From Parapedobacter tibetensis (GTDB lineage: Bacteria > Bacteroidota > Bacteroidia > Sphingobacteriales > Sphingobacteriaceae), in NCBI RefSeq assembly GCF_024704835.1, contig NZ_JAMXBE010000006.1, forward strand, positions 186,514 to 250,513: a DNA stretch of 64,000 nucleotides, in the 5' to 3' direction. This document shows, in pieces, positions 16,086 to 33,122 of the stretch (position 1 is its first letter; each line of letters starts with the position of its first letter). A program made the translations under genes and the position numbers. Under the pieces are notes generated by a model, which did no database searches, had not been told where the DNA came from, and saw only the letters and a list, made by a program, of their open reading frames with translations.

Positions 16086-16108
16086 CGGGCATAAGGCCAC
16101 TGGATGAT

Positions 16109-16405
16109 AGCAACCTGCACTCCATTGCATGCCTTTATGAATTACTGCAGGCCACAAACCATATAGTGAATCCGGCTGGGGAATGGAACAATGCCCGTAT
16201 TGTTGCACAGGGAATTTATGTTGAACATTGGCTGAACGGGATAAAGGTTTTGGAATACGAACGTGGGGGAAAACAGTTTCGTGAAGCAGTGGCTAAGAGC
16301 AAATTCAAAAATTATCCGAATTTTGGGGAAGCACTGAAAGGCCATATCCTGTTGCAGGATCATGCCGACTTGACCGCTTTCAGGAATATTAAATCAGGGA
16401 ATTGA
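16109..16405 (+). pseudogene. DUF1080 (3-keto-disaccharide hydrolase) C-terminal remnant
   Basis: The frame reads NLHSIACLYELL, then PAGEWNNARIV, VEHWLNGIKVLEYE, FKNYPNFGEALKGHILLQDH and FRNIK, the classic end of DUF1080/LamG-like secreted glycoside hydrolases. About two thirds of the gene and its signal peptide are missing upstream. It abuts the AraC remnant, so a deletion probably joined two unrelated genes near 16085-16110. No start codon suits it; GTG 16166 is only an accidental start. Confidence 0.72.
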
Positions 16406-16519
16406 GTTGTAATTAAATAATGATTCGCGATACGATGAAGAGAATAGTAGTCTGCTTTTTTTTGCTTTTTTCCTGCGCCGCCCAAGAACAGACGTATATT
16501 TTATGGTTGGATACCGGTT

Positions 16520-16786
16520 TTGGTTTTGTTGGTTTCACTGAACGCGTGTATGACCGTATCCTATGTCGGCGATCGTTTTCAACCGACCGAGCAGGTCGAT
16601 GTGTATTATGCGGCAAAAGACGTGAAGCGCAACTACAGGGTGATCGGACACGTCTCCGAATTGGTCGGTGGATTTGGCGGCGAAGAACGTGTCAAAATGG
16701 AGATTATAAAGAAATGTAAAGAAGTAGGCGCCGATGCTGTGAAACTGCTGATTCTTTCGAGAATCCAAGTTTCATTAAAAACTTAA
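16520..16786 (+). CDS. Small putative lipoprotein, start and integrity doubtful
   Basis: 88 aa. LVLLVSLNAC gives a lipobox, followed by MTVSYVGDRFQPTEQVDVYY, VGGFGGEERVKMEIIKKCKEVGADAV, a pattern seen in small Bacteroidota lipoproteins. The frame has no ATG before the signal: TTG 16520 would start it but leaves no charged n-region. A separate frame beginning at ATG 16435 starts a plausible signal (MKRIVVCFFLLFS), so a frameshift or decay is possible. It lies among gene remnants. Function unknown. Confidence 0.45.
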   Translation: MVLLVSLNACMTVSYVGDRFQPTEQVDVYYAAKDVKRNYRVIGHVSELVGGFGGEERVKMEIIKKCKEVGADAVKLLILSRIQVSLKT

Positions 16787-16817
16787 CCACTCATCAGGTT
16801 TGATGTACACGGCTTGT

Positions 16818-16903
16818 ACGGGAGTCCTTAGCGCTCGGATTAACTGAAAAAGAGGCCATTTCCGTTTTAGAATATCTGCGACAAGAAGGCATATAATTAC
16901 ATT
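16818..16903 (+). pseudogene. Short remnant, unrecognised helical C-terminus
   Basis: An in-frame stretch reads LVRESLALGLTEKEAISVL then EYLRQEGI and a stop, with a stop just upstream and no start. It looks like a coding end left by deletion, but I cannot name the family. Confidence 0.25.
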
Positions 16904-16920
16904 ATTCATCTTATTGAAAG

Positions 16921-16958
16921 GGACATGATCAGGGTTATTTTTCCGTTCATGTCCTTTT
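16921..16958 (+). terminator. Weak terminator-like hairpin
   Basis: GGACATGA (16921-16928) pairs with TCATGTCC (16947-16954), followed by TTTTAT. The loop is 18 bases long, so the call is weak. Confidence 0.3.
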
Positions 16959-16959
16959 A

Positions 16960-17173
16960 TCAGACTTCCGATATTTCTTTAAACCGCTTTACTTCTTCCG
17001 CAAAATCCGGCACAATATTACTTAGCTTGGCAATGAAACGTTATCTTCCAAGCGTTTTCGAATAGTTCAGGCAGCTTTTAGATATCAATCCTGTTTTTGT
17101 ATAAAAGCTTTAATTCCGTCACCAAGTTCGGTCTTGGCTTCGGATCCATCCCCATACTCCGCAGGCTCCTCCA
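16960..17173 (-). pseudogene. Decayed - strand reading frame, family not recognised
   Basis: Reading leftwards from 17173, one frame gives MDPKPRPNLVTELKLLYKNR, a stop, then KLPELFENAWK, and after a frame change SNIVPDFAEEVKRFKEISE and a stop. The segments look like one helical protein with a nonsense mutation and a frameshift. I do not recognise it. The rest of the gap 16787-17320 holds only the neighbouring short remnant, a weak hairpin and a promoter for the sigma factor. Confidence 0.3.
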
Positions 17174-17320: not shown

Positions 17321-17929
17321 ATGGCTGAACGAAAAATAGATGGAGATATTCAACAGTGGTTGGCCGGCGACGAGTTGGCCTTCAAAAAGATATTGGATTA
17401 TTATTACCGTCGTCTTTTGGCTTCTTCACTGAAATCTGTTTCCAACCGGGAGGATGCTGAGGAACTGGTTATGAATGCGCTGTTAAAAATATGGCAACAC
17501 AAACATCGCCTTTCCGAAGTGCAGCAATTCGATGATTACCTGTTCGGCATTCTGCGTCGAGAAACGGCCGCGCTCTCCCGCAAGCAAGTATTGGAAACGG
17601 AGAATATTGACGACCTCTCCTTAAGCGAACTTGGCAGCACAGATCATCCGGAATTTACTATTAAGGATATCCAATCTCTTTATCGGACGGCCCTTGACAA
17701 GCTCACCCCTAAACAAAGGGAGGTGTTCCTGTCCATCCGCGAGCAGGACATGAGCCGGAAAGAAATAGCAGAAAAAAACGGCATGTCCATCCATACCGTC
17801 AATAACCATATGAATGCTGCCTTGAAAGTCCTTAGACAGGAAATGAAGGAATACCCCGATGCCTTGATCGGCATATTGCTGGCCACATCGGTAACGAATA
17901 TTAACCTAATATTACCCAACCTCGCCTAA
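17321..17929 (+). CDS. ECF-type RNA polymerase sigma factor
   Basis: 202 aa. Region 2 appears as FKKILDYYYRRLLASSLKSV...EDAEELVMNALLKIWQHK, and region 4 as LDKLTPKQREVFLSIREQDMSRKEIAEKNGMSIHTVNNHMNAALKVL with its helix-turn-helix. Sigma factors of this Bacteroidota group are held by a FecR-type anti-sigma factor and released by a signal from a TonB receptor. Both partners follow directly (18034 and 19382), so it is likely the switch for the whole 17.3-33.0 kb block. Confidence 0.93.
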   Translation: MAERKIDGDIQQWLAGDELAFKKILDYYYRRLLASSLKSVSNREDAEELVMNALLKIWQHKHRLSEVQQFDDYLFGILRRETAALSRKQVLETENIDDLSLSELGSTDHPEFTIKDIQSLYRTALDKLTPKQREVFLSIREQDMSRKEIAEKNGMSIHTVNNHMNAALKVLRQEMKEYPDALIGILLATSVTNINLILPNLA

Positions 17930-18033
17930 TATTAACAAATCATGAAATCTTATTTTTCATCTGATTAGAAATCACGTTTCCAACATTCTTTATTATAGGG
18001 GCATGATGTAGCCACCTTTAAAAAAAGAAAAAA

Positions 18034-19248
18034 ATGGAGCGACCATCGAGAAACACACTGATCAGGTATTTTCGGGGACAATGCCAACCGCATGAGATCA
18101 AATTGGTGAGATTGTATCTGGCAATGGATATAGACAGGGAATTCGTGGGATCCTGTCTAAAAGAAGCATGGCTCACCGATCAGAAGGATAACGAATCAGA
18201 GATAGACGATGCCGATGTGGAAGATTTCAGCGAACGGTTTTTTGCGAGACAACGCGCATTTAAACAACTGCCTCCATTGAATCACCAATCCGAGACCCAT
18301 AGATTTCGATTTCCGGCCTGGATGAAAGCAGCGGCTGCTGTGATACTGATCGGATCTGCTATACTGGTGACTTACAACACCAAAATAAGGACTTCTGACA
18401 CGCGGGTTGCGCAGCGGGAAAATGAGGTGCTTCCCGGTAGTGACAAAGCCCTGTTGACGTTGGCAGACGGATCAACCATTTCATTATCGGAAGCCGAGAA
18501 TGGAAAAATTGTTGATCAAGCGGGACTTCATGTGGAAAAAACCGCGGAAGGTGAAATTGTGTACCGAGCGGATAATGAGGTAGTCACTGCTGCCGATGCC
18601 CACAATAGTGTGGTCACCCCCAACGGTGGACAATACCGGGTCACCCTTCCCGATGGATCGAAGGCTTGGCTGAATGCGGCATCTTCACTCACTTATCCAA
18701 TCCATTTTTCGGATGAAGAACGCCGTGTGAAAATGTCTGGAGAGATTTTCTTTGAAATCGCCAAGGTGAAGAAATCCAACGAACAGGGAAACGTACCCTT
18801 TTTCGTCGAGACCGATAAACAGGAAATCCAGGTATTGGGCACACAATTCAATGTCAATGCCTATGCTGACGAGCTTTATAGCTATACGACGTTAGTGGAA
18901 GGAAGTGTAAGGGTTACGTCTGCCGTAAATGGCAAATCGGTCATGCTGAGGCCCGGTCAACAGGCCAATCTATCCGATGACTTGCAAGTTATTGCCGCAG
19001 ATATGGAACAACAATTGGCATGGAGAAACGGTGATTTTGTGTTCAAAGAGGAGCAATTATCCAGTGTATTGCGGAAAGTATCCCGTTGGTATGACGTTGA
19101 GGTCGAGTGCCCCGCAGCACTTGGGGAAGTTCGGCTCACAGGAATGATTTCCCGCCATCAGCCATTATCAGCTGTAGTTAAAAGCGTCTCTTCTATAGGT
19201 ACGGTAAAAATGACATTGCAAGGAAGGAGGGTTGTAGTGGAACAATAG
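18034..19248 (+). CDS. FecR-family anti-sigma factor with DUF4974
   Basis: 404 aa. A cytoplasmic sigma-binding part (1-95) precedes a single membrane segment (about 97-114, MKAAAAVILIGSAILVTY). The periplasmic FecR domain follows (NGGQYRVTLPDGSKAWLNAASSLTYP, VKMSGEIFFEIAK, VLGTQFNVNAY, VEGSVRV). The C-terminal DUF4974 region includes DFVFKEEQLSSVLRKVSRWYDVEVEC. It should relay a periplasmic contact with the STN domain of the next gene product to the sigma factor encoded before it. Confidence 0.93.
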   Translation: MERPSRNTLIRYFRGQCQPHEIKLVRLYLAMDIDREFVGSCLKEAWLTDQKDNESEIDDADVEDFSERFFARQRAFKQLPPLNHQSETHRFRFPAWMKAAAAVILIGSAILVTYNTKIRTSDTRVAQRENEVLPGSDKALLTLADGSTISLSEAENGKIVDQAGLHVEKTAEGEIVYRADNEVVTAADAHNSVVTPNGGQYRVTLPDGSKAWLNAASSLTYPIHFSDEERRVKMSGEIFFEIAKVKKSNEQGNVPFFVETDKQEIQVLGTQFNVNAYADELYSYTTLVEGSVRVTSAVNGKSVMLRPGQQANLSDDLQVIAADMEQQLAWRNGDFVFKEEQLSSVLRKVSRWYDVEVECPAALGEVRLTGMISRHQPLSAVVKSVSSIGTVKMTLQGRRVVVEQ

Positions 19249-19381
19249 ATACGGTAACCGAAAACAATTTAATGGTTTAAATAAAGAAGCGGAGGTGCTA
19301 CCAACACCTGCCGCCAAATAGTTAAGTCTTGAAAAAATGTGGGAACAAATTTTACAAAAACGATAACTACAAAACAAAAGT

Positions 19382-22300
19382 ATGGATTTTTATCAAATCA
19401 TGCGTGTTATGAAAATCACCATGGTGTTATTGACCTGTTTTTTGGTACAGGTCAGTGCTGCAACCTACGCTCAACGACTGAATATAAGTAAGCAGGAAAG
19501 TAGTATACCCGATATCTTAAAAGAGATCAGGCGACAAGCTGACTACGATTTTTTATACGATGCCCATATCTTCAACGGGACATCGAAAATCAAAATCGAT
19601 ATCAAAGATGCTAGTATCGAACAGGTATTAGCAGCATGCTTTGTGAATCTGCCGTACCAATATACAATCAACAACAAGATCGTAATCATTAAGAAAACTC
19701 CGGCCAGACAATCCCAAGCAAGCAATATGAATAGCGCTCAACAACAGCTTCTGGTCAGTGGCCGGGTGATTGATGCTGACAGCAAGACCACCCTGCCCGG
19801 TGTTTCCATCCGTATCAAGGGCACCAATACAGGAGCCACCACCGACGGTAACGGCAACTTCGCCATGCCCATACCGGAAGCCGGGGCTACGTTGGTTTTT
19901 ACCTGCCTCGGCTATGACACCAAGGAAGTACATGTCAGTGCCGCCGAAAGAAACATCACGGTGACGCTGAATTATTCCTCCACAGCCCTGGGGGAAGTAA
20001 CCATACAGGCACGTCGGAAGACCGACACGGAAATTGCCGTTTTGGATGAACGCCGCAAGGCATCCATCGTGCAGGATGCCATCTCGGCCCAGCAGATCGA
20101 ACGGACGGGAAGCATCACGACGTCGCAAGCATTGCAACGCGTGACAGGTGTAACCGTTACAGAGGATAAGTATGTTGCCGTGCGAGGCCTGGGCGACCGT
20201 TCGGTAATCGGACAATTAAACGGAATAAGATTGGCCTCTTCCAATCCCGACCGCAGCAGTGTCCCGTTGGATCTGATCCCAGCAACATTATTGGACAACA
20301 TTACCGTTTTCAAGACAATTACCCCCGATCTTCCTGCCGACGCTTCGGGCGGTATCATAGAACTCAAGACACGATCCATACCTGACAAACGCGTGCTGGC
20401 CATTACGGCCCAGCAGGGAACCAATTCCAATATAGGCCTCGGCGGAGAGGTAAACAGCTTTTTCAATAGCGATATGGGCTTTTTTGCGCAGAACATCAAT
20501 AAAAAAGACTTAAGCTCGGAGTTTATTAGTTTGGGAGGACAATACCCGGGGGGGCTTGCACAAATGCAACGTGTTATCGCCGGCGCTAATAACAGCACGG
20601 AACAGCTGGCCGAGGTAAACCGTATCAACGGCATCATGCGCAGCTTTGATCCAGTGTTGAACACGACCTATCGGAAGGCGCCGCTGGATGGGATTTATGG
20701 TATCTCCTTCGGCGATGCATACACATTGGCGAACGGCGACAAAATCGGTGTCATAGCCAGCGGCAGTTATTATAGCCGGTCCACTGATATAGCGGGTGGT
20801 GCAGTAAATCAATACAGCATCTTTCAAGGTGTCACCACGGGTAGTACCTACATCCAGCAGTCCCGGAGCATTCCCGGCTATATCACGCCGAACCGGACCG
20901 CTCTTGGCCGATACGTTTCCCATCAGGAAAATACGGGAACCCAGGTGCTGAATTACGGTCTGCTCGCCGGGATCAGTTATCGATTCAGCAGACAGCACGA
21001 GATCAGCATGCAGTACATTGGGAGCCGTGGAGGTGAAACTCAGGCAACCAGTTTAATGGGACAATACGAGTATACGGCGGGATTTGACGGACCGATTTAC
21101 AACACGACGTATTCACTGAAACAAACCCATCGCATATTCAACACGCTCAATCTCCAGGGCGAACACCAGTTGGGAGCAGGGGAGTATGCTCCAAGATTAA
21201 GTTATAATCTGGCGTCTTCCAGATCCAGCCATAACGACCCCGACTTCCGCTCGGTCAACCTGGCGGAATACCGGCCCGGAAATGGCGGCTTTTTTTTGGT
21301 GCCCAATCAAAATCCCATCGAATACATCGGGACGGACGAGCATTACAGCCTGGTTTCGGGTTACGTAAGGGGTTATGGCCCGTTTGGATTGATACAGGCA
21401 GATCCCAACGGCAGACGATTCAGGAATTTGGAGGAACTGAATTATAACTACAAGGCAGACCTTGCGATCCCTTTTAAGATTTTCAACCGGCAGGTGTTTA
21501 AGATGGGGGTCAACTATCTTTACCGTGAACGTGATTTTTCCGAGTATGTGCTATCGCTCCCCGGGTCCAATTTCGGGTCGGATAGACAGCTTCCGCTTTA
21601 TCTTTCAAAAGGCAATGTGAATCAACTGGTCAGCCAAAGCAACATCGGAATACGACTGGAAGATCCGCTGTCGGGAGAGGGCGCTCCACTGGTCAACGGT
21701 TTTCTTTACAACAGCCTGAAGTCGCCCAACAATTACATCGGATTCAATGAGACGAATGCCTTTTACGGCATGCTCGACCTGAAGCTAACCGATCAGGTAC
21801 GTCTGGCGGGAGGCGTGAGGTTCGAGAACACGGACATACAGAGCAAGGTGGATACAGTTGGCGTATACATCGATCCCGCTATCGCCGAAGGGATCACCCC
21901 GGTTTATGTGAACCCTGTCACCGGGTATAAGACCGCTTACAGGCCGTTCTATTCGGCAAATTTGACCTATAGCCCGAACAACAGGATGAATTTCAGGTTT
22001 GCATTCAATACCTCATTGGCCCGTCCGGAATTACGCGAGATGACCAATGTTTTCGAGTTTGACCCGTTCCTGCAGGCCCTGGTGGTCGGCAATCCGGAGC
22101 TGACCAATCAACGCGCCAGGGCGTTTGACTTCCGCTGGGAATGGTTTATCAATCCGGGAGAAGTGGTCGCCGTGTCGGTATTCGAGAAGCAGATATACGA
22201 TCAACTGGAAAGGGCTTTTATCCTGAATACAGCTGGTACGAGCGCCACATTCCCTGAATTTCCGACCATTGCGTTCCAGAACAACCCCAATACGGGACAG

Positions 22301-22828
22301 GTATGGGGGATAGAACTGGAACTGGTAAAAGATTTGGGACTGCTGTTTGACCCGCTCAAATACTTTTTCATCGGTAGTAACATCACGTTGGTACAAAGCG
22401 ATGTGGTCAAATCCAGGGAACGCCTGGAGGCGGCACGAATCATCGACCGGCAATCACCGAAGAATTCCCCCCTTTTCGAGCAAGCCCCCTATTCCATTAA
22501 CGCTTTTCTCAATTATACCCACTCTGGCCGCGGTACCGACTTGACGGTTAATTTCAATGTGGTGGGCGAGCGGCTCATACAGGTAAGCATGGATGGTACG
22601 CCGGATATCTACAGCAATCCCGCCCCCGTACTTGACGTTGTGTTCGGGCAGCGGATCACATCAAGACTATCCCTGAAGGGATACGTGAAGAACCTGCTCA
22701 ATCCAAGATTTGAAGAGAGTTACAACAATGCCGGCACCGGAGGTACATTCTATGGACAACGTTACCTACGAAGGAGTTTCCGGCGTGGCACGGAATACAT
22801 GCTGGGGCTTACTTTCACTATTGATTAA
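19382..22828 (+). CDS. TonB-dependent receptor with STN signalling domain
   Basis: 1148 aa. Signal peptide (ATYAQ), then an STN (secretin/TonB short N-terminal) domain, DILKEIRRQADYDFLYDA to ASIEQVLAACFVNLPYQYTI. A CarboxypepD_reg-like domain follows (VSGRVIDADSKTTLPGVSIR), then a plug with VTGVTVTEDKYVAVRGLGDR and DASGGIIELKT, and a large barrel ending in YMLGLTFTID. The STN domain contacts FecR in the periplasm, making this the sensor as well as a transporter. The substrate is unknown; no SusD partner follows, unlike typical polysaccharide loci. Codons 7-10 offer alternative starts (MRVMKIT). Confidence 0.92.
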   Translation: MDFYQIMRVMKITMVLLTCFLVQVSAATYAQRLNISKQESSIPDILKEIRRQADYDFLYDAHIFNGTSKIKIDIKDASIEQVLAACFVNLPYQYTINNKIVIIKKTPARQSQASNMNSAQQQLLVSGRVIDADSKTTLPGVSIRIKGTNTGATTDGNGNFAMPIPEAGATLVFTCLGYDTKEVHVSAAERNITVTLNYSSTALGEVTIQARRKTDTEIAVLDERRKASIVQDAISAQQIERTGSITTSQALQRVTGVTVTEDKYVAVRGLGDRSVIGQLNGIRLASSNPDRSSVPLDLIPATLLDNITVFKTITPDLPADASGGIIELKTRSIPDKRVLAITAQQGTNSNIGLGGEVNSFFNSDMGFFAQNINKKDLSSEFISLGGQYPGGLAQMQRVIAGANNSTEQLAEVNRINGIMRSFDPVLNTTYRKAPLDGIYGISFGDAYTLANGDKIGVIASGSYYSRSTDIAGGAVNQYSIFQGVTTGSTYIQQSRSIPGYITPNRTALGRYVSHQENTGTQVLNYGLLAGISYRFSRQHEISMQYIGSRGGETQATSLMGQYEYTAGFDGPIYNTTYSLKQTHRIFNTLNLQGEHQLGAGEYAPRLSYNLASSRSSHNDPDFRSVNLAEYRPGNGGFFLVPNQNPIEYIGTDEHYSLVSGYVRGYGPFGLIQADPNGRRFRNLEELNYNYKADLAIPFKIFNRQVFKMGVNYLYRERDFSEYVLSLPGSNFGSDRQLPLYLSKGNVNQLVSQSNIGIRLEDPLSGEGAPLVNGFLYNSLKSPNNYIGFNETNAFYGMLDLKLTDQVRLAGGVRFENTDIQSKVDTVGVYIDPAIAEGITPVYVNPVTGYKTAYRPFYSANLTYSPNNRMNFRFAFNTSLARPELREMTNVFEFDPFLQALVVGNPELTNQRARAFDFRWEWFINPGEVVAVSVFEKQIYDQLERAFILNTAGTSATFPEFPTIAFQNNPNTGQVWGIELELVKDLGLLFDPLKYFFIGSNITLVQSDVVKSRERLEAARIIDRQSPKNSPLFEQAPYSINAFLNYTHSGRGTDLTVNFNVVGERLIQVSMDGTPDIYSNPAPVLDVVFGQRITSRLSLKGYVKNLLNPRFEESYNNAGTGGTFYGQRYLRRSFRRGTEYMLGLTFTID

Positions 22829-22852
22829 TAAGATACAAATAACGATTACCCA

Positions 22853-24511
22853 ATGAGATTTATACGCCTATTTCTAATGATATGGATCGGAGCATTGCTG
22901 TCATCCTGTGCGAAAGACAAAATAGAGCAGCACAGGTTGGTGGCGTATGACGACATCGAACCGTCTACCGCCCGGCTCGTTTTGGTCAGTGGTCTGGATA
23001 TTTTTGTAAACGGCCAACGGCTTACCAATATGGGAGAAACCTCTCCGGCCACGGGTGGACGGGCTCCCATCCCTACGAAGTACTTTCCGGAAACCGGTAC
23101 GCCCGGCATGACCTACTTTATTCCCCAGGAATTTATGGGCAGTGAAGGAAAAGCAGATATCAGTGTCGGTTTGTGGCCTTCTGCCGATATCCAGATCGAA
23201 GACGATTACAAAGAGCCCTGGGACTACTACTTCAATCAAAACCGCCTATTGGCGAATGAAACACAGTTAACCCAGGTGCCCCGGCCCGTCGTCACGCCTT
23301 CCTCGCCGGAAAAGATATTGATCCGGCTGATCAACCTATCGGCATTGGATGGGATAAACAGCGATGAGGGGGAAACATTGAGTCTGGCTTATGCAGATGG
23401 AAGTTTGGTCAGTACGACCACTTCCGGCATCGTGAAAGGAGCATGGTCTGACTACGTGGAAATACCTTATGGAACCTATGAATTCCGTGTCTTGGTGGAC
23501 GGCAGCGACCGGCAATGCCCGGCTGTCCCACCGATTGGGGTTATCGTGGAAAGTACGGATGACGCCACCATACAGGGCACCCGCCGGTACTTTACGCAGC
23601 GTCGGGTGTTTCAGCCCGGCGGCGTGTATACAGTCGCCGTGACTGGGAACTTTAGAGGTTTTGAAGCAAATATGACCGGTGTCCCACTGAATGCTTTTTC
23701 TGTGGTCACTGACCGGTCCCCGTCGACAAACCGTACGTATGCGAAGGTACAATTCGTAAATGCCATTCTGGGGAAAGCGTTAAAGGCGGCGATAAACGGA
23801 TCGGACATAGAAACCGGGTTGATGTCTTTTGGTGATGCCAGTGCATATCATATCATCTCGACCGGTCAGCAAACGATTAAGGCCAGCGATGAAGCGGGGA
23901 ATCCATTGATTCAGCACGAATTGTCCGTGCGGGGAGGTGACAATCTCACCCTTTGGCTGTATGTTACACCTGCCGGACTTCCGGCAATCCATGCGGTTCA
24001 GAATAACATGAGCGGGCTGGTGAATCTGTCCGACAATCCCGACGGGGCAAGCGGGATGACGTCCATATACGATCCACTCCATTTTACGGACATGAACATC
24101 CAGACACGTTTTTTGAATTTTTGTCCGGATATCGACTACGTCACCTTTACCGGACGCAACGGGCAATCGTTAGGTAGGCCGATAGAACGGTCGGGCGGCG
24201 GCATAGGCTATTCAGATGCCGCCAGCAATCTTCAGCCGGGCGTTCCACCGGACGTGGATCGGGTGCCCTATCCATATATCAACATCACGCCGGAGGAGAT
24301 CCAGGTTTACCGATCCGGCCCCGGAACAGTGCCGGGAAATCGATTGTTCGAAGTACAGTCCATTACGGCGCAGCAATTTATCAACATGCCGGCACCGCAT
24401 TATCCCAATGGGTGGCCAATGGGGGAGGCCGGCGTATATACAGTGGCACTTATCGGACGATATACAACTGACCAAAAGCCGAGCATGGTCGTCATCAAAC
24501 ATAATCAGTAA
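22853..24511 (+). CDS. DUF4397-like lipoprotein
   Basis: 552 aa. Lipobox GALLSSC followed by AKDK. Several beta-rich repeats with the look of DUF4397 domains: ARLVLVSGLDIFVNGQRLTN near the N-terminus and AKVQFVNAILGKALKAAING...FGDASAYHIISTGQQTIKASD in the middle (about 302-350). DUF4397 domains are Ig-like surface modules of unknown function. It starts 24 bases after the STN receptor gene, so it is in the same operon and takes the place a SusD gene usually holds. The domain call rests on pattern only. Confidence 0.7.
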   Translation: MRFIRLFLMIWIGALLSSCAKDKIEQHRLVAYDDIEPSTARLVLVSGLDIFVNGQRLTNMGETSPATGGRAPIPTKYFPETGTPGMTYFIPQEFMGSEGKADISVGLWPSADIQIEDDYKEPWDYYFNQNRLLANETQLTQVPRPVVTPSSPEKILIRLINLSALDGINSDEGETLSLAYADGSLVSTTTSGIVKGAWSDYVEIPYGTYEFRVLVDGSDRQCPAVPPIGVIVESTDDATIQGTRRYFTQRRVFQPGGVYTVAVTGNFRGFEANMTGVPLNAFSVVTDRSPSTNRTYAKVQFVNAILGKALKAAINGSDIETGLMSFGDASAYHIISTGQQTIKASDEAGNPLIQHELSVRGGDNLTLWLYVTPAGLPAIHAVQNNMSGLVNLSDNPDGASGMTSIYDPLHFTDMNIQTRFLNFCPDIDYVTFTGRNGQSLGRPIERSGGGIGYSDAASNLQPGVPPDVDRVPYPYINITPEEIQVYRSGPGTVPGNRLFEVQSITAQQFINMPAPHYPNGWPMGEAGVYTVALIGRYTTDQKPSMVVIKHNQ

Positions 24512-24517
24512 GCCATC

Positions 24518-25813
24518 ATGATACAGAAAAGAAACCGATACAAAAAATACGGATCTGCATTCCGCCTTGTGGCATTGGGCTGCGTACTGCTCTGCATGGG
24601 AGCTTGCCGCAAATCCGAGTACAACCTGGTGCCGGAGGCGGCTTATCTGCGCGTATTTAACACCTTGAATTACCGGATAGATCTTTCAACGAAAGGGAAG
24701 CCCGTCCCGTTTCTGACCATGATCATTGATCCCGAATACGGTGTGGAAGGCCATATAATTGGAGGAAAGGTAATTGGAGATTTCCTGGATGTCAGGACAA
24801 GATATGCACCGCCGACGGCGGACGCAGCTTCCTCCTCATACATAAACCGGGAGTTTCCGGGCAACCTCAAAATCCCGGTCGCTCCGGTCATCAACGGTTT
24901 CGATCTTTCGGGTTGGGCACAAGTGCCGTCCGGCACACACCGCTTTGTATTCTATACCCGTCCTTTTACTGACGTACCATTTTTTGAATTGCCGGCTACC
25001 ATACGGGAAGAACAAACCGTCATCGCGGATAGCACATTCAATTTGTCAGAAGGCGAAGTATATACGCTGAACCTGTTGGAAAAAGAGGTAAGCAGTGAAG
25101 GACTTTCCACCTTGCTCTACCTTAGGCAGGAGCGTTTCCACAAAATGGCCTTTGCCGATTCACTCCTATATGTCAATTTTTATAACCTAAGTGCAGCAGG
25201 CTATGTCGATGCGCACCCAGAGCCTTCGAGCATGATCACAAACTACGATCAGGCAACAGGAACAGCAATCAAGGATCAGGTCAATATTTATTATTCGCTA
25301 TACCGGGACGACATACCTTATCCCTTTACGTTGATAAACAACCGGCGACCGCGGATCGGCGTTACCCCCGTGCCGGGCCATCAGCTTATTCCCTTGCAAC
25401 AATTGACCCGCTCCCACGAACCCGTTGTTTCGCCGTACAACACGATCCCGCTTTTTCTTCCCGATGATACCACGGGTAATATCCTCGCCAGGCATTGGGT
25501 CCGTCTCGATATCGTCCCTCCCGGTGGAGGTGGAGGAGGGTTAATTGGTGCATCCGATCCAAGCCATAGACTGTTCGCGCCGGCAAACGGAACCATTGTA
25601 TCATTGACGAACCTCAGTGATGAAGGGCGTACGCAGTTATATACAGGGGGGCGTGGAAACGCACCGGGTTTCCTTTTACCAAGCCTGATCCGTGAGGCCG
25701 TGTCCGGTCCGTACCGGCAACGGTCGTTTGCCACGGTCAGCACCATAGAGTTTATCAACAAGCAGGTGTATATGACATCCGTGATGAAAACATACGATCC
25801 GCCCATCAAATGA
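24518..25813 (+). CDS. Uncharacterised lipoprotein, possibly DUF4397-related
   Basis: 431 aa. Lipobox LLCMGAC followed by RKSE. Beta-rich throughout, with AYLRVFNTLNYRIDLSTKGKP at the start reminiscent of a DUF4397 first strand, and a Gly-rich stretch PPGGGGGG near residue 335. It has no catalytic motif I recognise. Six bases separate it from the preceding gene, so it is translationally close and probably part of the same surface complex. Confidence 0.6.
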   Translation: MIQKRNRYKKYGSAFRLVALGCVLLCMGACRKSEYNLVPEAAYLRVFNTLNYRIDLSTKGKPVPFLTMIIDPEYGVEGHIIGGKVIGDFLDVRTRYAPPTADAASSSYINREFPGNLKIPVAPVINGFDLSGWAQVPSGTHRFVFYTRPFTDVPFFELPATIREEQTVIADSTFNLSEGEVYTLNLLEKEVSSEGLSTLLYLRQERFHKMAFADSLLYVNFYNLSAAGYVDAHPEPSSMITNYDQATGTAIKDQVNIYYSLYRDDIPYPFTLINNRRPRIGVTPVPGHQLIPLQQLTRSHEPVVSPYNTIPLFLPDDTTGNILARHWVRLDIVPPGGGGGGLIGASDPSHRLFAPANGTIVSLTNLSDEGRTQLYTGGRGNAPGFLLPSLIREAVSGPYRQRSFATVSTIEFINKQVYMTSVMKTYDPPIK

Positions 25814-25833
25814 TGCACATTCAAGAATAGATC

Positions 25834-27021
25834 ATGAGAACAACTGTATTATATTTAGTCCTGATAGCCGCATGCAGTGGTCTTATCCGCTGCAGCAAGC
25901 CTGATATGACCGTCTTCCCGCCACCGGGTACAACAGAAGTAAACAACATTTCGGATTACCTGAACAACCAATTGTCCCTATCGCTCTTTGCCGAGGCCGC
26001 ACAGCTTGCCGGATTATCTGAGGACTTAGCTACAGCGGAATATACCGTGTTTGCCGTCAATGATGAAGCATTCCATCGAATAGGGATAACCACAGCGGCC
26101 GATCTGCAACGTTGGCCGACGGACAGTTTGGAAACATTTGTGCAGCAGCATATGATTCAGGGCCGGCTACTTTACGGGGATATACCGCGATCGCTCGATA
26201 CCGAGTATTCGACGGTAAACGGGGAAACGTTGCTCATATCGTATCATTCGGAAGAACTGACCACCGTCAATGGCGTCCGGATGATCGAAAATCCGAGGGC
26301 ATCCAACGATCCCCGCACCTTTGGCACCCCCCTGCAAAACGGAATGGTCTATCCCATCCAGACCCCTATCAAGACAACGACGGGTACAGTGCAGGATTTC
26401 CTGGCATCCAGGCCGGAATTATCGCTGTTTGTTGCCGGGCTCAAAAAGTTCGGCCAGTGGGACCGGCTGGCCACGGAACAGCAGATTACCGTATTAGCAC
26501 CGCCTGATTCCGTGTTCCTCCGTTACGGCATAGATGCCGATCGTATAGTGGATATGGATGCGCAAGCGTTTCAGTCCCTGCTGATGGATGCCTACATCGT
26601 AAATTTCAACCGGATATTTACAAACGACGTGCAAACCCAAATAAATGAGATAGACTACCCGAACACAAGCTCTGCCAATATGCTTTTCCTACGGACCAGT
26701 GATCCGGAGACAGGTTTGGCCGTGGTCAACGAATACCAGTCATACACCGGAACATTCCTTTTCAAGCCGGGAATCAATGAACCGATGGTGATCGGCCCCG
26801 GCCAGCCACCATTCTGGGCCACACGGATTATCGGTTCAAACAGACTTTCCGTTCCAAATCCATCGGATGTCAATACGGGTTATGTCATCGCCTATCTGGG
26901 CGAAGCAAGATATACCTCGGCTTCCGAATTAACCGGTCGTTACATGAATTTCAATTGCGCGAATGGGGTGGTTCATTACATCGATGGCTTACTGGTCATG
27001 CCGGAGGAGGCCATTAAGTAA
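25834..27021 (+). CDS. Fasciclin (FAS1) domain lipoprotein 1
   Basis: 395 aa. Lipobox-like GLIRC followed by SKPD. Two FAS1-type repeats: LSLFAEAAQLAGL...YTVFAVNDEAFHRIG with QQHMIQGRL, and LSLFVAGLKKFGQWDRL...ITVLAPPDSVFLRYGI, ending with NGVVHYIDGLLVMPE, the standard FAS1 finish. FAS1 domains mediate adhesion or protein and glycan contacts. It follows the previous lipoprotein by 20 bases and is the first of three consecutive FAS1 lipoproteins. Confidence 0.85.
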   Translation: MRTTVLYLVLIAACSGLIRCSKPDMTVFPPPGTTEVNNISDYLNNQLSLSLFAEAAQLAGLSEDLATAEYTVFAVNDEAFHRIGITTAADLQRWPTDSLETFVQQHMIQGRLLYGDIPRSLDTEYSTVNGETLLISYHSEELTTVNGVRMIENPRASNDPRTFGTPLQNGMVYPIQTPIKTTTGTVQDFLASRPELSLFVAGLKKFGQWDRLATEQQITVLAPPDSVFLRYGIDADRIVDMDAQAFQSLLMDAYIVNFNRIFTNDVQTQINEIDYPNTSSANMLFLRTSDPETGLAVVNEYQSYTGTFLFKPGINEPMVIGPGQPPFWATRIIGSNRLSVPNPSDVNTGYVIAYLGEARYTSASELTGRYMNFNCANGVVHYIDGLLVMPEEAIK

Positions 27022-27077
27022 TGAGGACGTTGACGGAAATCAGGCAAATGCCACAGACCCACAAATTATTATATAGA

Positions 27078-28505
27078 ATGAAAACAGAAACAAACCCCGC
27101 AAAACTGATCTGCATCGCGCTGTGGGCAACCATGGCAATAGTTACGTGGTCATGCAGTAAAGTGGAAGAAATACCGGTGGAGTTGCAGCCTCCATTGCCG
27201 TATCAGCATACAGCATTAAAGGAAATAACGGAAATCATAACGCAAGAGGAAGAGATAAGCATTTTCCGGGAAGTCTATTCCAGGTCGGGCGTCAAGGAGT
27301 ATATGGACAGTGTCCGCGCCACAACCGCGGATACCCTTACACCATTTACGCTATTCATTCCCCGCGATGCCGCATGGCAAGCCATGGGCTATAACGTGGA
27401 AAGCATAAGCAACCTTTCTGCCGAAGCATGCCGGGAACTCATCATGTACCTGACCGTACGGGGGCGCTATGTTCCGACGAACACGTCCGATCCGGTTTCG
27501 GGAACAAACACCCTTCGTCCCATCATCCCGGCCAGGCGTTATGAGCTGCAGGATAGCTGGGGATCTATCCAGGTATCCCACCAGCCTTACCTGCTCTACT
27601 TGGCCTGGGGAGGTGGGAACATCTATTTGAACGGAAAAGAAGCCGGTACAGTCGGAAATGATATACATCCTGCTACAGACGGCGCAGTATACCTAATCAA
27701 TACTTTGCCCATCAAGCCGAGGAAAACGGTGTATGAAATACTGCAGGAAGACGAATCATTCAGTTTTTACCTGACTGCCCTGAATATCAGCAACCAGGTG
27801 TATCAGGAATTCCAGGTCGGTATTGACCCGGAAAACCGGAGCGAAGAGTTATTCTGGACGACGCCTGAACCGTTCATTAATGACCTTCCGCAACTTAGTA
27901 GTTTCACTCCCATGTTCGGAACTATAACAACAGGTAATCTGAATATGAATAATATGTACACGGTGTTTGCCCCGGACAACCAGGCATTCATCAGGGCAGG
28001 ATTTCCAGACATTGCTTCGATAGCAGATTATATCCGGTCGTCGTATGTAACCACCACCGGATATATGGAAGATATGAGGAGGAGGCCCCGCTATACCAAC
28101 ATGGATTCGGTACTAAACCACAGCTTTTTCGCGGGAACAACCACCATAAGTCATTTCCCGGTATTTGTTATGTCACGGCAGTCCACAAACGTAAACAATC
28201 AGCTAGTGTTTACCAACGATATGGTGTGGAACTCCGTTTTCCGGAATGAAGGGATACGCCGCTCCGTTTCATTGACATTTTACGATTGGACCTTTTTTGA
28301 TGAAAATCTGTATGATTTCTCGCAATATGTAGAGGAACGCAGCGAACTGAAGCTCCTGTTCCGCCCGGAAGGAAATCGGATCACCATCCAGCGTGGTGAC
28401 GCGCCCGACGGTCGGGCTGCCCACGTTGTCTTGGAACAATCCGATGTAGTCGCCATGAACGGCGTAATACACCGGATAGACAATCTATTGTGGCCAAACC
28501 CTTAA
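27078..28505 (+). CDS. Fasciclin (FAS1) domain lipoprotein 2
   Basis: 475 aa from ATG 27078, which places the lipobox IVTWSC 26 residues from the start; ATG 27021 overlaps the previous stop (TAATG) and follows a good purine-rich site, so it remains possible. FAS1 features: FREVYSRSGVKEYMDSV...FTLFIPRDAAWQAMGY with CRELIMYLTVRGRYV, and a second copy with MYTVFAPDNQAFIRAGF and MNGVIHRIDNLLWP at the end. Both repeats are divergent. It continues the operon without a gap. Confidence 0.8.
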   Translation: MKTETNPAKLICIALWATMAIVTWSCSKVEEIPVELQPPLPYQHTALKEITEIITQEEEISIFREVYSRSGVKEYMDSVRATTADTLTPFTLFIPRDAAWQAMGYNVESISNLSAEACRELIMYLTVRGRYVPTNTSDPVSGTNTLRPIIPARRYELQDSWGSIQVSHQPYLLYLAWGGGNIYLNGKEAGTVGNDIHPATDGAVYLINTLPIKPRKTVYEILQEDESFSFYLTALNISNQVYQEFQVGIDPENRSEELFWTTPEPFINDLPQLSSFTPMFGTITTGNLNMNNMYTVFAPDNQAFIRAGFPDIASIADYIRSSYVTTTGYMEDMRRRPRYTNMDSVLNHSFFAGTTTISHFPVFVMSRQSTNVNNQLVFTNDMVWNSVFRNEGIRRSVSLTFYDWTFFDENLYDFSQYVEERSELKLLFRPEGNRITIQRGDAPDGRAAHVVLEQSDVVAMNGVIHRIDNLLWPNP

Positions 28506-28519
28506 ACCCTAAAATCAGC

Positions 28520-29551
28520 ATGATCATGTTAAGAGCTTATACAAGATACCTCATCAACGTGTTTATCTTCCTGCACATCGCGGTGGTATTCCAGTCCTGT
28601 ACAAAAGAAGATTCACCGGTAGACTCCATTCACAATGCCAGGGGCATTGCAGCAGTGGCAAATAACAATTATTCACTCCAGAATTTCTTTTTGGGATTGC
28701 AGGTCACAAACCATGTCCCGCTGCTTACGGAGGCCGGGCCTTTTACCGTATTTGCACCGGCTAATGAGGCATTTAATAGTTTAGGAGCCGAAGCCCGGAA
28801 CGCAATACGCAGCAACGCCACGTTAGTCGGACAGATCGTTCCCTACCACATCTATCCCGGAGTGCTAAAGCTGAACGACCTTGGTGAGGAACGCAACCAG
28901 GTTTTTACGATGCAAAACAATATGACGGCCTATATCAGTCACATGCAAAATGACAGGGAGTCGTTGTTTACCATCAATGGAATACCTGTTCAGCCAAAAG
29001 GTTTCGAGGCAAGCAACGGATTGGTCTACACCACGCAGGCACTTTTACAGCCTACCCAACAGCTCAGTTTGGCGGAACTTATTTCCAACGATGCTTCGTT
29101 CACTTTTTTCAGCGTTGCCGTACGGCACAGCGGTCTTGCAGACCTATTGGAAGGATCGGACGAGCTGACCGTTTTTGCGCCGTTGAACAGCGCGTTTGTG
29201 GCCATGGGAATCTTTACCACGGATGAAATCGAAAGCATGTCACCAGATGAGCTGAAGCAGCTTGTTTTACCCCATATTACCGAAGGCCGGCAATACCTGT
29301 ACGATTACATTATGATGGCCGATGTGGCGAGCCAACTATATACGGAAACCATGTTGGACAGAAAAGAGGCATCGATTCAGCTTTTACCGAACTACAGCTG
29401 GATCAGCGAAACGGGGTTTCGGGGGATCAGTATCAGTAAACCAGATAATTCAGGAGGATTGAACACCTCGGAAATCCTGATTGAAAGCCATATCGGACGT
29501 ACGGCAAACAATGGCGTACTTCACGGGATCAGTACAGTCTTGAGACCTTGA
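28520..29551 (+). CDS. Fasciclin (FAS1) domain lipoprotein 3
   Basis: 343 aa from ATG 28520 (28526 also possible). Lipobox VVFQSC followed by TKEDS, an acidic pattern after Cys like surface-export signals of Bacteroidota lipoproteins. It has the two clearest FAS1 repeats of the three: GPFTVFAPANEAFNSLG with VGQIVPYHIYPG, and ELTVFAPLNSAFVAMGI with LVLPHITEG, closing with NNGVLHGISTVL. It is the last lipoprotein before the second TonB receptor. Confidence 0.87.
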   Translation: MIMLRAYTRYLINVFIFLHIAVVFQSCTKEDSPVDSIHNARGIAAVANNNYSLQNFFLGLQVTNHVPLLTEAGPFTVFAPANEAFNSLGAEARNAIRSNATLVGQIVPYHIYPGVLKLNDLGEERNQVFTMQNNMTAYISHMQNDRESLFTINGIPVQPKGFEASNGLVYTTQALLQPTQQLSLAELISNDASFTFFSVAVRHSGLADLLEGSDELTVFAPLNSAFVAMGIFTTDEIESMSPDELKQLVLPHITEGRQYLYDYIMMADVASQLYTETMLDRKEASIQLLPNYSWISETGFRGISISKPDNSGGLNTSEILIESHIGRTANNGVLHGISTVLRP

Positions 29552-29759
29552 TGTTCAAATCCTATCTGACAAAAAACCGATCCTTTAAACGATAATATTT
29601 AAAAAGTTGATGAAACCCACATGATTTAACGAAACACAAAAGAGAATGAAAAACACCTCTTTTTCAATCATGTATGGTTCCATGAGGCCTTTTAAAAACA
29701 AAACGCGTAGCGTTCATGAGTACAAATGAAAACAAACAATAACGAATAATTATTTTCGA
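29552..29759. other. Gap between the FAS1 genes and the second TonB receptor
   Basis: 208 AT-rich bases without a recognised gene. A 27-codon open stretch (29646-29729) has no family match. No terminator is visible, so read-through into the receptor gene at 29760 is plausible, but a separate promoter cannot be excluded. Confidence 0.5.
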
Positions 29760-32700
29760 ATGAAAAGCTTAACTATATTGAATTGGTTACGGATGATGCT
29801 ACTAATGGGCTGTATTATGCTATTAGTCATCCCGACCGCGACCTATTCCCAGGAAACCTCCGGCTCCCTGACCGGCCGGGTGACCGATGCCCGGGGCGAA
29901 CCCTTGGCGGGGGCATCGGTTACAGCCATCCATGTGCCGTCCGGCACCCGCTACGGGCTGTCAACCGATGCTGGTGGTCGTTATACCTTGAACAATCTCC
30001 GCATCGGTGGCCCCTATACGGTGACCGCTTCCATGGTGGGCATGCAGGATAATATCCGACCGGATATACAGGTGCGTCTGGGCGGCGCGCAGCGACTCGA
30101 CTTCGTGTTGGGCGACGATGCGCAGGCATTGGACGAGGTCGTGGTGACCGGACGTCCGCAAGGCCAGCGTGCCGATATCTACGGTGTAGGAAAGAACATC
30201 AATGCGGAACAGGTGCGCAATATGCCGACGGTCAGCCGTTCGGTCACGGACGTCACACGGCTCACTCCGCAGGGCAGCCGCGACAACAGCTTCGGTGGTA
30301 CCAGCTTCCGCTACAACAACGTGACCATCGATGGTGCGATCAACAATGACGCGATCGGCTTCTCGCCCTCCTTGGGCGGGCAAACCGGTACATCCGGCAT
30401 GGCAGGAAGTTCCACCCGCACCAACCCCATATCCATCGACGCCATACAGGATATGCAGGTGTACCTGGCCCCCTACGATGTGAAGATCGGTAACTTCACG
30501 GGCGGATCGGTCAATGCCGTGACACGCAGCGGTACAAACAAGGTCGAAGGTTCCGTCTATGGTTTCGGTCGCAACGCCGCCATAACGGACAAAGACCGGG
30601 TGGGGACACTCGGCAAAATGCACAGCGACTTCTACGACTACCAGACAGGCTTCCGTATCGGGTTCCCGATCATCAAGGATAAGCTGTTTTTCTTTAGCAA
30701 CGAAGAGATCACCCGCCGACAGGATCCAACACAATTGCTGGTCGGTACGGTGGAGACATCCCATATCCTAAGTGAAGCGGATGCCTCTTCGATAGCCAGT
30801 ACCGTACAGAGCCGCTACGGCGACATCTTCGATGCCGGAACGGCGGGATTGTACACCAACTGGTCGAAATCGGTCAAATTCTTCAACCGGCTGGACTGGA
30901 ACATCAATGACCGCCATCAATTGGCCATTAGGAACAATACGATCCGTAGTTCTGCCACACACATGGATCGTGACCAGCAGGACTTCCGCTTTTCCAGCAT
31001 GGCTTTCGAACAGACCAATAACCAGAGCTCCACGGTAGCCGAACTGAAAAGTCGGTTCAGCAATTCGCTTTCGGGCAACGCCGTAATTGGTTACACGGTG
31101 GTGAACGACAGCCGCGACCCGCTTTCGGATCCCACACTGCCGCAGGTGCAGGTACAGGGGCGCACGCCCGGCACGACCATCTACTTGGGTACCGACCGCG
31201 AGGCCAGCATCTTCGATATGAAGCAAAAAACATGGGAAGTGACTGCCAACCTGAACTGGAATACCGGCAGACACAAACTCCTGTTTGGAACACACAACGA
31301 GCTGTACAGCATTCGCTATGGTTTTGTGAATGGATGGAACGGCCGGGTGGACTACAACAGCATCGAGGATTTTATCAGTAATAACCCTTACCGTGTACGG
31401 GGTAGCTATAATTATATCAATAATACAAGGGATTACATTCTGGACAACCCGGAAGCGGACTTTAACGTGAACATGTACAGCCTGTATGTGCAGGACGAGA
31501 TCAGTATCAGCGACAGGTTCCGCGTCACCCCAGGACTGCGTGCCGATCTGACCCACCTGCCGGAGATGCCTACGCTGAGCGATAAGGTGCGGGACATCTG
31601 GGCCGATCCGAACTTCGGGACGACTTACAACTACACACCCATCAGCCATATCTCCAACGATTTTATGAACCGTGTCCAGCTCTCCCCAAGAGTGGGTTTC
31701 CGCTGGGAGGCGACCGAAGACCGCAGTCTGGTTGTCCGCGGTGGAGCAGGCCTTTTCACCGGCCGAATCCCCTTTGCATGGCTGGCCTATGCTTATTACA
31801 ATACGGGCGACAGCTACGGGGCGTTCGATCAGCGCGCCGACCGGAAGCCTTTCACTCCGGGGTCGGACGCCATCAAACCCAGCCCGAACGGACTGGGGGA
31901 CTTCATCCAGCAGAACGGGGCGGTGACGGGCGACCGGAACAGCGGGCAGACGCAGGTGGACCTGGTGGACAACGGCTTTACGCCGCCTCAGGTGTTCCGT
32001 GGTAGCCTGGGCATCGATTACGAGGCTCAAAACGACTGGAAGTTCAGTCTGGAGGTGATGTACACCAAGAATGTCAGTGATGTGCTATTCCAGCAATTGA
32101 ACACCAAAGATAACCCGCTATGGTACGGATACGATACGGATAGGCAGCAACCTGTATACAGCGGCACGGTGGACAGCCGGTTCTCGAACGTGTATCTACT
32201 CAGCAACACCAGCGAGGGCTACCGCTACAGCCTGACGGGAACTATAAGCAAGCAGTGGAAAAGCCTCAACGCTACCGCCAGCTACACCTTTGGCGAATCC
32301 AAGGACATGAGCAACGGTATACGCAACTCGATGGAGAGCAACTGGCAGCTGAACCAGTCGCTGGTACCGAACAATCCGACGCTGGCCTACAGCAACTTCG
32401 ATATCCGTCACCGGATTGTCTCGAGCATCAGCTATGGCCACGACTGGAAAAGTGCGGGGAGAACGAATATCAACCTGTTCTTCTCGGCACAGTCCGGCTC
32501 GCCGTTCACCTACGGAATCGTGAACAACAGCACACAGGGGCTTCCGCAACAGGTGTCATTGGTCTATATTCCGACGCAAAGCGAGGCGATCAACTACTTC
32601 AAGGATATTTCAAGGGGGCAGACCGCACAGCAGCAAGCACAAGCCTTCAATGCGTTCATCGATGGAAGCGAATACCTGTCATCCAGACGTGGGGAGTTTA

Positions 32701-33035
32701 CCGAGCGCAACACGGGGCGCACACCCTGGAACGTGCAGGCCGATCTGCGCATTGCGCACGATCTGCCGGTGAATAAATCGGGCCACTTCCTGACCATTTC
32801 GGCAGACGTGGTGAATCTGACTAATCTGCTGTACAAGGAATGGGGTGTGCAGTACTTCTCGCCCAATACGTTCAATTCGACGAGCAGCGTGGGTCTGACG
32901 CCGACGCTGTTTCCACCACAGCAGAACGCGGGAAACTGGCCAGTATTCACGTTCGCCGATCCGGGCAAGCCGTATAGTATTGATTACTTCAACTCCAGGG
33001 CACAGGTGCAACTGGGGCTGAGGTATACATTCTGA
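29760..33035 (+). CDS. Oar-like TonB-dependent receptor (no STN domain)
   Basis: 1091 aa. Signal peptide ending in TATYSQ, a CarboxypepD_reg-like domain (SGSLTGRVTDARGEPLAGASVTAIH...GRYTLNNLRIGGPYTVTASMVG) and the motif LDEVVVTG. The plug has FRYNNVTIDGAINNDAIGFSPS and SIDAIQDMQVYLAPYDVKIGNFTGGSVNAVTRSGTN, typical of Oar/OmpA-like receptors. Its long barrel ends in VQLGLRYTF. Oar in Myxococcus is a TonB-dependent transporter linked to protein export. Having no STN domain, it is not the sigma-factor sensor. A hairpin terminator at 33083 closes the block. Confidence 0.9.
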   Translation: MKSLTILNWLRMMLLMGCIMLLVIPTATYSQETSGSLTGRVTDARGEPLAGASVTAIHVPSGTRYGLSTDAGGRYTLNNLRIGGPYTVTASMVGMQDNIRPDIQVRLGGAQRLDFVLGDDAQALDEVVVTGRPQGQRADIYGVGKNINAEQVRNMPTVSRSVTDVTRLTPQGSRDNSFGGTSFRYNNVTIDGAINNDAIGFSPSLGGQTGTSGMAGSSTRTNPISIDAIQDMQVYLAPYDVKIGNFTGGSVNAVTRSGTNKVEGSVYGFGRNAAITDKDRVGTLGKMHSDFYDYQTGFRIGFPIIKDKLFFFSNEEITRRQDPTQLLVGTVETSHILSEADASSIASTVQSRYGDIFDAGTAGLYTNWSKSVKFFNRLDWNINDRHQLAIRNNTIRSSATHMDRDQQDFRFSSMAFEQTNNQSSTVAELKSRFSNSLSGNAVIGYTVVNDSRDPLSDPTLPQVQVQGRTPGTTIYLGTDREASIFDMKQKTWEVTANLNWNTGRHKLLFGTHNELYSIRYGFVNGWNGRVDYNSIEDFISNNPYRVRGSYNYINNTRDYILDNPEADFNVNMYSLYVQDEISISDRFRVTPGLRADLTHLPEMPTLSDKVRDIWADPNFGTTYNYTPISHISNDFMNRVQLSPRVGFRWEATEDRSLVVRGGAGLFTGRIPFAWLAYAYYNTGDSYGAFDQRADRKPFTPGSDAIKPSPNGLGDFIQQNGAVTGDRNSGQTQVDLVDNGFTPPQVFRGSLGIDYEAQNDWKFSLEVMYTKNVSDVLFQQLNTKDNPLWYGYDTDRQQPVYSGTVDSRFSNVYLLSNTSEGYRYSLTGTISKQWKSLNATASYTFGESKDMSNGIRNSMESNWQLNQSLVPNNPTLAYSNFDIRHRIVSSISYGHDWKSAGRTNINLFFSAQSGSPFTYGIVNNSTQGLPQQVSLVYIPTQSEAINYFKDISRGQTAQQQAQAFNAFIDGSEYLSSRRGEFTERNTGRTPWNVQADLRIAHDLPVNKSGHFLTISADVVNLTNLLYKEWGVQYFSPNTFNSTSSVGLTPTLFPPQQNAGNWPVFTFADPGKPYSIDYFNSRAQVQLGLRYTF

Positions 33036-33082
33036 TAAATCAAAGGTATCCCCTCTGTATTCAGCAGCACATGAAGGGGAAT

Positions 33083-33122
33083 AAATACTCAGGACCGGAG
33101 CAGCAGCCGGTCCGAGTATTTA
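33083..33122 (+). terminator. Hairpin terminator closing the FAS1/TonB-receptor block
   Basis: AAATACTC-A-GGACCGG (33083-33098) pairs with CCGGTCC-GAGTATTT (33107-33121), a 15-bp stem with one bulge, 48 bases after the receptor stop. The following T-run is short. Confidence 0.65.

Follow-up and report, generated by a model that had tools for sequence, protein, structure and literature searches.

Uptake at the surface of Bacteroidota is understood largely through SusCD utilisomes and polysaccharide utilisation loci (PULs), in which a TonB-dependent receptor and several surface lipoproteins are encoded in one operon under the control of an extracytoplasmic function (ECF) sigma factor and a FecR protein. 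Other systems close to the one described here are Oar of Myxococcus xanthus, which exports PopC, and the iron capture system (ICS) of Capnocytophaga canimorsus and Riemerella anatipestifer. A sigma/FecR pair with a signalling receptor, as in FecIRA-type signalling, corresponds to the ferric-citrate layout, according to the available text of PMC11658791. A stretch of 64,000 nucleotides from the genome of Parapedobacter tibetensis (5.98 Mb, 85 contigs), hereafter the window (contig NZ_JAMXBE010000006.1, positions 186,514 to 250,513), was found to carry an operon for an ECF sigma factor, a FecR protein, an STN-bearing receptor (TBDT1), two beta-sandwich lipoproteins (L1 and L2), three fasciclin-domain (FAS1) proteins (FASa, FASb and FASc) and an Oar-like receptor. 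In Sphingobacteriaceae and Chitinophagaceae alike, the usual form of the system keeps one receptor together with five or six lipoproteins and includes neither SusD nor a recognised enzyme. The operon is strictly conserved in Bacteroidota and apparently undescribed so far, as no description was found in literature searches of open-licence PMC papers, covering mainly titles and the starts of abstracts.

The operon shares with SusCD systems the TonB receptor, the several surface lipoproteins in one operon and the sigma/FecR control, and some of its relatives add a SusC-SusD pair; it differs in that the invariant receptor does not score as a SusC, the canonical form has no SusD, two different receptors are present and no glycan-degrading enzyme was recognised. 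The ICS order of SusC, SusD and TIGR04549 metallohydrolase recurs in variant loci, a likeness of family name and gene order only, whereas the window operon has no SusC, SusD or zinc metallohydrolase, and the available text of PMC5429918 makes no mention of DUF4397 or FAS1 lipoproteins in the ICS. ECF sigma factor, FecR and STN-bearing receptor occur together in the window locus as in FecIRA-type signalling, although here many lipoproteins and another receptor are encoded alongside the STN-bearing one. The term Oar-like refers to domain layout only and, unlike Oar of M. xanthus, the receptor is embedded in a lipoprotein operon.

A fixed block of receptor and lipoprotein genes

The window operon consists of nine intact open reading frames (ORFs), all on the plus strand and in the order given in an earlier note on this DNA, whose domain calls (sigma, FecR, STN receptor, DUF4397, FAS1 and Oar-like) were borne out by Pfam and NCBIfam scores. 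The ECF sigma factor (17321..17929; Sigma70_r4_2 48.3 bits, r2 24.1; 117.8 bits against TIGR02985, below the cut-off of 126.4) is followed by a FecR-type anti-sigma factor or signal transducer (18034..19248; FecR 58.6 and FecR_C 54.3 bits, above cut-off) and by TBDT1 (19382..22828), with STN, CarbopepD_reg_2, Plug and barrel regions, the STN domain scoring 29.2 bits, slightly above the Pfam cut-off of 28.4. L1 (22853..24511; SCAKDK lipobox) and L2 (24518..25813) precede the FAS1 genes, which all score above the curated Fasciclin (PF02469) cut-off of 22 bits: FASa (25834..27021; probable lipoprotein, 68.6 bits, two stretches), FASb (27021..28505; SCSKVEE lipobox, 58.3 bits, three stretches) and FASc (28490..29551; SCTKED lipobox, 105.1 bits, two stretches). 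An inner ATG near 27078 is likelier as the FASb start than the listed one, as is an inner ATG for FASc than the listed GTG. The last gene encodes the Oar-like receptor (29760..33035), which has the layout of such receptors, an OMP_b-brl_4 barrel (164.6 bits, cut-off 30) with a CarboxypepD_reg domain (77.2 bits), and no STN match in Pfam. If the starts are taken as listed, the genes from TBDT1 to FASc are spaced by -16 to 24 bases, in agreement with the short gaps described before.

The genome collection was scanned with an L2 profile, and 129 relatives were confirmed, among them from Pedobacter, Chitinophaga, Sphingobacterium, Mucilaginibacter, Filimonas, Parapedobacter and Desertivirga. The best 80 by L2 match were analysed as loci; in places several came from one genome, hence they are not independent. 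Gene order was read with models derived from window and related loci (six for most of the parts, with fewer in the case of sigma, FecR and Oar), which favours recovery of the same parts; the TIG, SusC and SusD models contain no window protein, and ORFs were chosen mechanically. The search for the same gene order, which had been proposed as a check, recovered TBDT1-L1-L2-FASa-FASb-FASc uninterrupted in 78 of the 80 loci, the exceptions being a degenerate copy (L068) and a locus truncated by the contig end (L117). A full ten-gene order, sigma-FecR-TBDT1-L1-L2-FASa-FASb-FASc-Oar-TIG/NHL lipoprotein, was kept in 60/80; the TIG gene stood upstream of Oar in four further loci and was followed by SusC in two. 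This tenth gene was present in 71/80 relatives, and its product has five TIG stretches and an NHL-type part. Median gaps were 2 to 11.5 bases within the core (TBDT1-L1, 2), 20.5 for FASc-Oar and 17 for Oar-TIG. Among flanking ORFs of at least 120 residues without a match to our own models, with SusC, SusD, sigma and FecR look-alikes excluded, no family recurred in more than 5/80 loci, so the block is sharply bounded. Its genes stay contiguous in a fixed order, and no neighbour recurs widely beside them.

Near-full-length L1, L2 and TBDT1 (E <=1e-200) were each detected in 67 of 399 genomes of the family, and the three sets of 67 genomes were identical. At most three L1, four L2 and two TBDT1 candidates were scored per genome, the copy numbers being lower bounds. 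L1 was counted at 86 places, three of them fragments, leaving aside 40 further genomes in which the only DUF4397 matches were weak and confined to a single domain (E 7e-10 at best). It lay directly upstream of L2 on the same strand at 83/86 L2 places; the other three were two degenerate copies and a further copy in genome G406, with TBDT1 correctly placed, where the limit of three L1 candidates applied. L2 was absent at 2/86 L1 places, both partial matches. In a phylum sample of 395 genomes, L2 was found only in the window's genome and in one genome of another family of the same class. TBDT1, L1 and L2 thus always occur together in the sampled genomes, and the set is limited to this operon type. 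A scattering of the lipoprotein genes away from the receptor, named in the earlier note as evidence against a single unit, was not seen for L1 and L2, the two families covered by this check. FAS1 is a common family, with further members in the window's genome that in contigs C5 and C2 adjoin receptor loci with SusD, another plug-bearing receptor lying downstream of the FAS1 genes in C5; FAS1 proteins as TonB-system accessories are therefore not limited to this operon.

Receptors, lipoproteins and variant loci

Against the SusC/RagA model TIGR04056 (cut-off 368.25), TBDT1 scored 66.7 bits and the Oar-like receptor 57.4, while a true SusC from a variant locus reached 625.3. The best NCBIfam receptor model for TBDT1 was TIGR01782 (239.6 bits, below the cut-off of 310). 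Among solved structures, sequence comparison at E up to 1e-5 matched TBDT1 only to part of 9gbc, covering the carboxypeptidase-like and plug regions, and none was found for the Oar-like receptor at the same threshold. The reported absence of SusD from the set was supported, as no SusD domain was detected in the nine proteins (Pfam, E up to 1). By these profile scores TBDT1 is not a SusC, therefore no SusD is expected and none is "missing". This argues against the earlier proposal that FAS1 and DUF4397-like lipoproteins replace SusD, as do relatives that keep a whole SusC-SusD pair beside the same lipoproteins, in the place of Oar. L1 and L2 were also rejected as disguised SusD proteins, having no SusD domain in Pfam and strand-rich models; SusD-like folds were not among the displayed rows of the fold comparison, which cover mainly one or two domains per model.

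L1 matched DUF4397 (PF14344) with 42.2 bits, above the cut-off of 30.6, whereas L2 reached only 13.2. Both AlphaFold2 models are mostly beta (mean pLDDT 81.7 for L1 and 80.5 for L2), consistent with the two beta-rich lipoproteins described earlier, and the best solved fold match of both was the PepT2 ectodomain (Z 13.5 over 174 residues for L1, Z 11.6 over 183 for L2). From these models the two proteins are taken as sharing one two-domain beta-sandwich fold, in the sense of fold alone and not of function; a PepT-like function was discarded, the match to the mammalian ectodomain being read as domain arrangement only. By sequence, L1 had 12 weak matches to solved structures (E 0.3 to 0.55), and L2 none at E up to 1.

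A lysine at position +3 followed by an acidic residue is a surface-export signal of Bacteroidota lipoproteins, known from Capnocytophaga work. Among proteins with a recognised lipobox, Lys was found at +3 in 56/59 L1, 64/73 L2, 61/72 FASb, 60/68 FASc and 57/66 TIG proteins, with a mostly acidic residue after it; in FASa, His (28) was about as frequent as Lys (24). Judged by this signal, L1, L2, FASb, FASc and the TIG lipoprotein are expected on the cell surface, the location of FASa being less clear. Median pairwise identity between loci was 63% for TBDT1, 68% for Oar, 30-46% for the lipoproteins and 26% for sigma and FecR. Inter-locus distances of TBDT1 correlated with those of each lipoprotein (r 0.84-0.90), as did those of the lipoproteins among themselves (0.89-0.95).

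Five genomes have loci with SusC-SusD-zinc metallohydrolase-DUF4302-DUF4302 in place of Oar, in two arrangements. Type B runs FecR-TBDT1-L1-L2-FASa-c-TIG-SusC-SusD-zinc metallohydrolase-DUF4302-DUF4302 (L014/L173, L162/L174 and L171/L175, with L132 by its visible part, and L133 apparently being the L171 locus itself); in the three genomes followed that far, its sigma gene lies at the opposite end in convergent orientation. Type C runs sigma-FecR-SusC-SusD-metallohydrolase-DUF4302-DUF4302-TBDT1-L1-L2-FASa-c-TIG (L160/L176 and L012/L177), with a second TBDT1-to-FASc set downstream in genome G026. The HExxH motif of the metallohydrolase is kept in all five genomes, and the one protein tested scored 267 bits against TIGR04549 (cut-off 75). 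Eight of the ten DUF4302 genes lie above the Pfam cut-off, the other two being recognised by a single-sequence model only. The position of the STN domain differs between the arrangements. In type B, where FecR precedes TBDT1, the TBDT1 of L133 carries STN (31.1 bits) and the three SusC tested have none; in type C, where FecR precedes SusC, both SusC show an N-terminal STN match that stays under the cut-off of 28.4 bits (21.2 and 20.7), and both TBDT1 tested have none, their alignments beginning at position 123-124. By these domain matches, STN appears to sit on the receptor next after FecR, and the second receptor appears exchangeable. Since nature itself exchanges the second receptor and relocates STN, the signalling logic is directly testable through domain swaps.

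Two other forms were seen, a variant carrying four FAS1 genes instead of three (L153-L156) and a mini-version of sigma-FecR-TBDT1-L1-L2 only, without FAS1 or a second receptor (L015 and L157). The L015 copy is followed, after a gap of 221 bases, by carotenoid-type, PepSY_TM and DUF4198 genes (L015:12301-15068), and the four neighbours tested at L157 belong to the CAT, HAD hydrolase and glyoxalase families, with one having no match.

The window copy itself has no TIG/NHL gene, and elsewhere in the same genome only domain-level matches were found; the gene is likewise lacking in L134, L138, L142 and L147, four relatives that were read further downstream. The window FASc-Oar gap of 208 bases is an outlier, the maximum being 70 among 70 relatives. 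A partial copy in a genome of the same genus (G002) is 87.4% identical over window positions 24798-29576 and resumes at 29694, and 117 bases of the gap are missing from it; the gap has therefore probably grown in the window lineage, with Oar belonging to the operon, although the Oar-like gene could have a promoter of its own. The window receptor has a median identity of 70% to its counterparts in the relatives. The copy of the window cassette in G002 (L178, G002:C42:15000-26091) is degenerate, with L2 truncated, FASa-c retained and a different sigma/FecR/receptor set upstream.

A probable capture and import machine and its ligand

The operon seems fairly likely to encode a single signal-controlled outer-membrane machine for capture and import. 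L1, L2 and FASa-c, with the TIG/NHL protein in relatives, would surround TBDT1 on the cell surface, bind a scarce ligand and hand it over to TBDT1, so that fast-changing collectors would serve a conserved receptor. L1 would be the best candidate for the partner sitting on the TBDT1 barrel, since its gene adjoins that of the receptor. Loading of the STN-bearing receptor would be relayed through FecR to the sigma factor and turn the operon on, as for ferric citrate; the sigma/FecR control proposed in the earlier note is supported by the gene positions and the STN domain. The exchangeable second receptor, either Oar-like or SusC-SusD with its zinc metallohydrolase, may import or export a partner substance.

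This make-up points to capture and import of something that is not an ordinary polysaccharide. A protein, peptide or metal complex is the likelier ligand, because no Pfam-recognised enzyme is encoded in the operon and the only one attached to it, in the variants, is the TIGR04549-type zinc metallohydrolase, which follows SusC and SusD there as it does in the R. anatipestifer ICS locus that rises under iron limitation. No carbohydrate-active enzyme was present among the Pfam hits of the operon, the neighbours not having been screened against CAZy models.

Several observations weigh against such a machine or its suggested ligand. TIGR01782, the model nearest to TBDT1, includes sugar transporters, and together with the FAS1 proteins beside SusD-bearing loci of the same genome this favours a glycan; many FAS1 proteins act as adhesins. 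Correlated distances would also be expected from plain common descent. Correlations with the lipoproteins were lower for Oar (r 0.71-0.85), and those of sigma/FecR with the rest were the lowest (r 0.57-0.78). From these lower values and the divergence of sigma/FecR, an exchange of the second receptor and of the regulator pair appears possible, and the type B sigma gene is convergent at the far end. Finally, the two mini-versions imply that the FAS1 genes and the second receptor are dispensable.

Among the alternatives, the lipoproteins might remove iron or another metal, or a metal complex, from a protein or siderophore for delivery to TBDT1, as in the Capnocytophaga ICS, which we regard as possible, if rather unlikely. 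It would fit the junction of the cassette with SusC-SusD-zinc metallohydrolase-DUF4302-DUF4302 in five genomes. In the available text of PMC5429918, R. anatipestifer B739_0103 to 0101, annotated as SusC/RagA, RagB and substrate import-associated zinc metallohydrolase, are matched by the authors to icsC, icsD and icsE; they follow the gene order of the variants and rise under iron limitation (3.8, 3.4 and 3.1, presumably log2). This link is one of family name and gene order only, however, and other SusCD-type loci go down under iron limitation according to the same text. The ferric-citrate layout of sigma/FecR and signalling receptor (PMC11658791, available text) is likewise in favour, as is the PepSY_TM and DUF4198 neighbourhood of one mini-version, but the gap of 221 bases and the carotenoid-type gene mean that the PepSY genes at L015 may be a separate operon, and the four genes tested beside L157 belong to other families or match none. 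Conserved His, Cys or Met residues form no evident cluster in L1 or L2, apart from the lipid Cys, a C-terminal His in L1 and a near-invariant Met in L2.

Glycan uptake by a PUL-like machine without enzymes of its own, with the lipoproteins as glycan binders, is in our view improbable. The TIGR01782 match, the FAS1 lipoproteins beside SusD-bearing loci and an L1 domain with similarity to AlgF domains from the alginate machinery (Z 10.4, 85 residues) are set against an operon without a recognised carbohydrate-active enzyme, flanks without a recurrent family, a TBDT1 that does not score as a SusC and canonical loci without SusD. A regulated adhesion or cell-contact system, in line with the earlier note and with the receptors as sensors or anchors, would suit the FAS1 domains, the faster divergence of the lipoproteins than of the receptors, as expected for exposed contact surfaces, and weak Foldseek matches to Bacteroidales fimbrial proteins, but these matches do not exceed a probability of 0.44 among the rows displayed, and the most conserved parts are the TonB receptors, which adhesion does not need, so import is the more economical explanation; adhesion appears unlikely.

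The capture and import machine may, tentatively, stand for a separate class, in which DUF4397-type and FAS1 lipoproteins would serve a non-SusC receptor as SusD and glycan-binding proteins serve SusC; it could be equipped with an Oar-like receptor or, instead, with a SusCD-metallohydrolase module of the iron-capture type, with STN moving to the FecR-adjacent receptor. With its defined parts, the operon in any case lends itself to asking in what other ways surface lipoproteins can serve a TonB receptor.

Hairpins and neighbouring features

The hairpin reported to close the block, downstream of the Oar-like gene (33082..33122, plus strand), does fold (-23.8 kcal/mol, z -5.7), but it has no T-run and is not in the list of predicted terminators. 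A second hairpin lies in the FecR-TBDT1 gap (19289..19314, plus strand; fold z -1.9). Hairpins are visible in this gap in many relatives (median z -1.75 in 76 sequences, with 32 values below -2), and by eye a strong hairpin follows FecR in 12/15 other gaps read in the same genome (L183, L185, L186, L194, L195, L198, L199, L202 and L205-L208), with differing stem sequences. The gaps read came from loci of 30 of the 54 FecR_C matches in this genome, leaving out 14 of the 30. As no Rfam match was found in the searched stretch of the window gap either, the hairpin was treated as generic and an RNA switch specific to the operon was rejected. In Desertivirga, an Rfam DUF805 RNA (RF03081) lies directly upstream of the sigma gene on the minus strand (L146:2582-2644).

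Upstream of the window sigma gene, positions 15960-17000 hold the remains of broken genes, among them a stretch, with stops around it, that presumably resembles part of a DUF1080-type protein. The window's genome has 54 FecR_C matches, some in frames of receptor length, and thus a large sigma/FecR receptor set; another FecR-receptor-lipoprotein set, with DUF4397, LRR and Big_2 proteins, lies in contig C67 (L037:5869-15444). Downstream of the operon, at 34724-36286, a bS16 gene encodes a protein of 520 residues whose long in-frame acidic tail comes from 11.7 repeats of an 87-base unit (96% matches).

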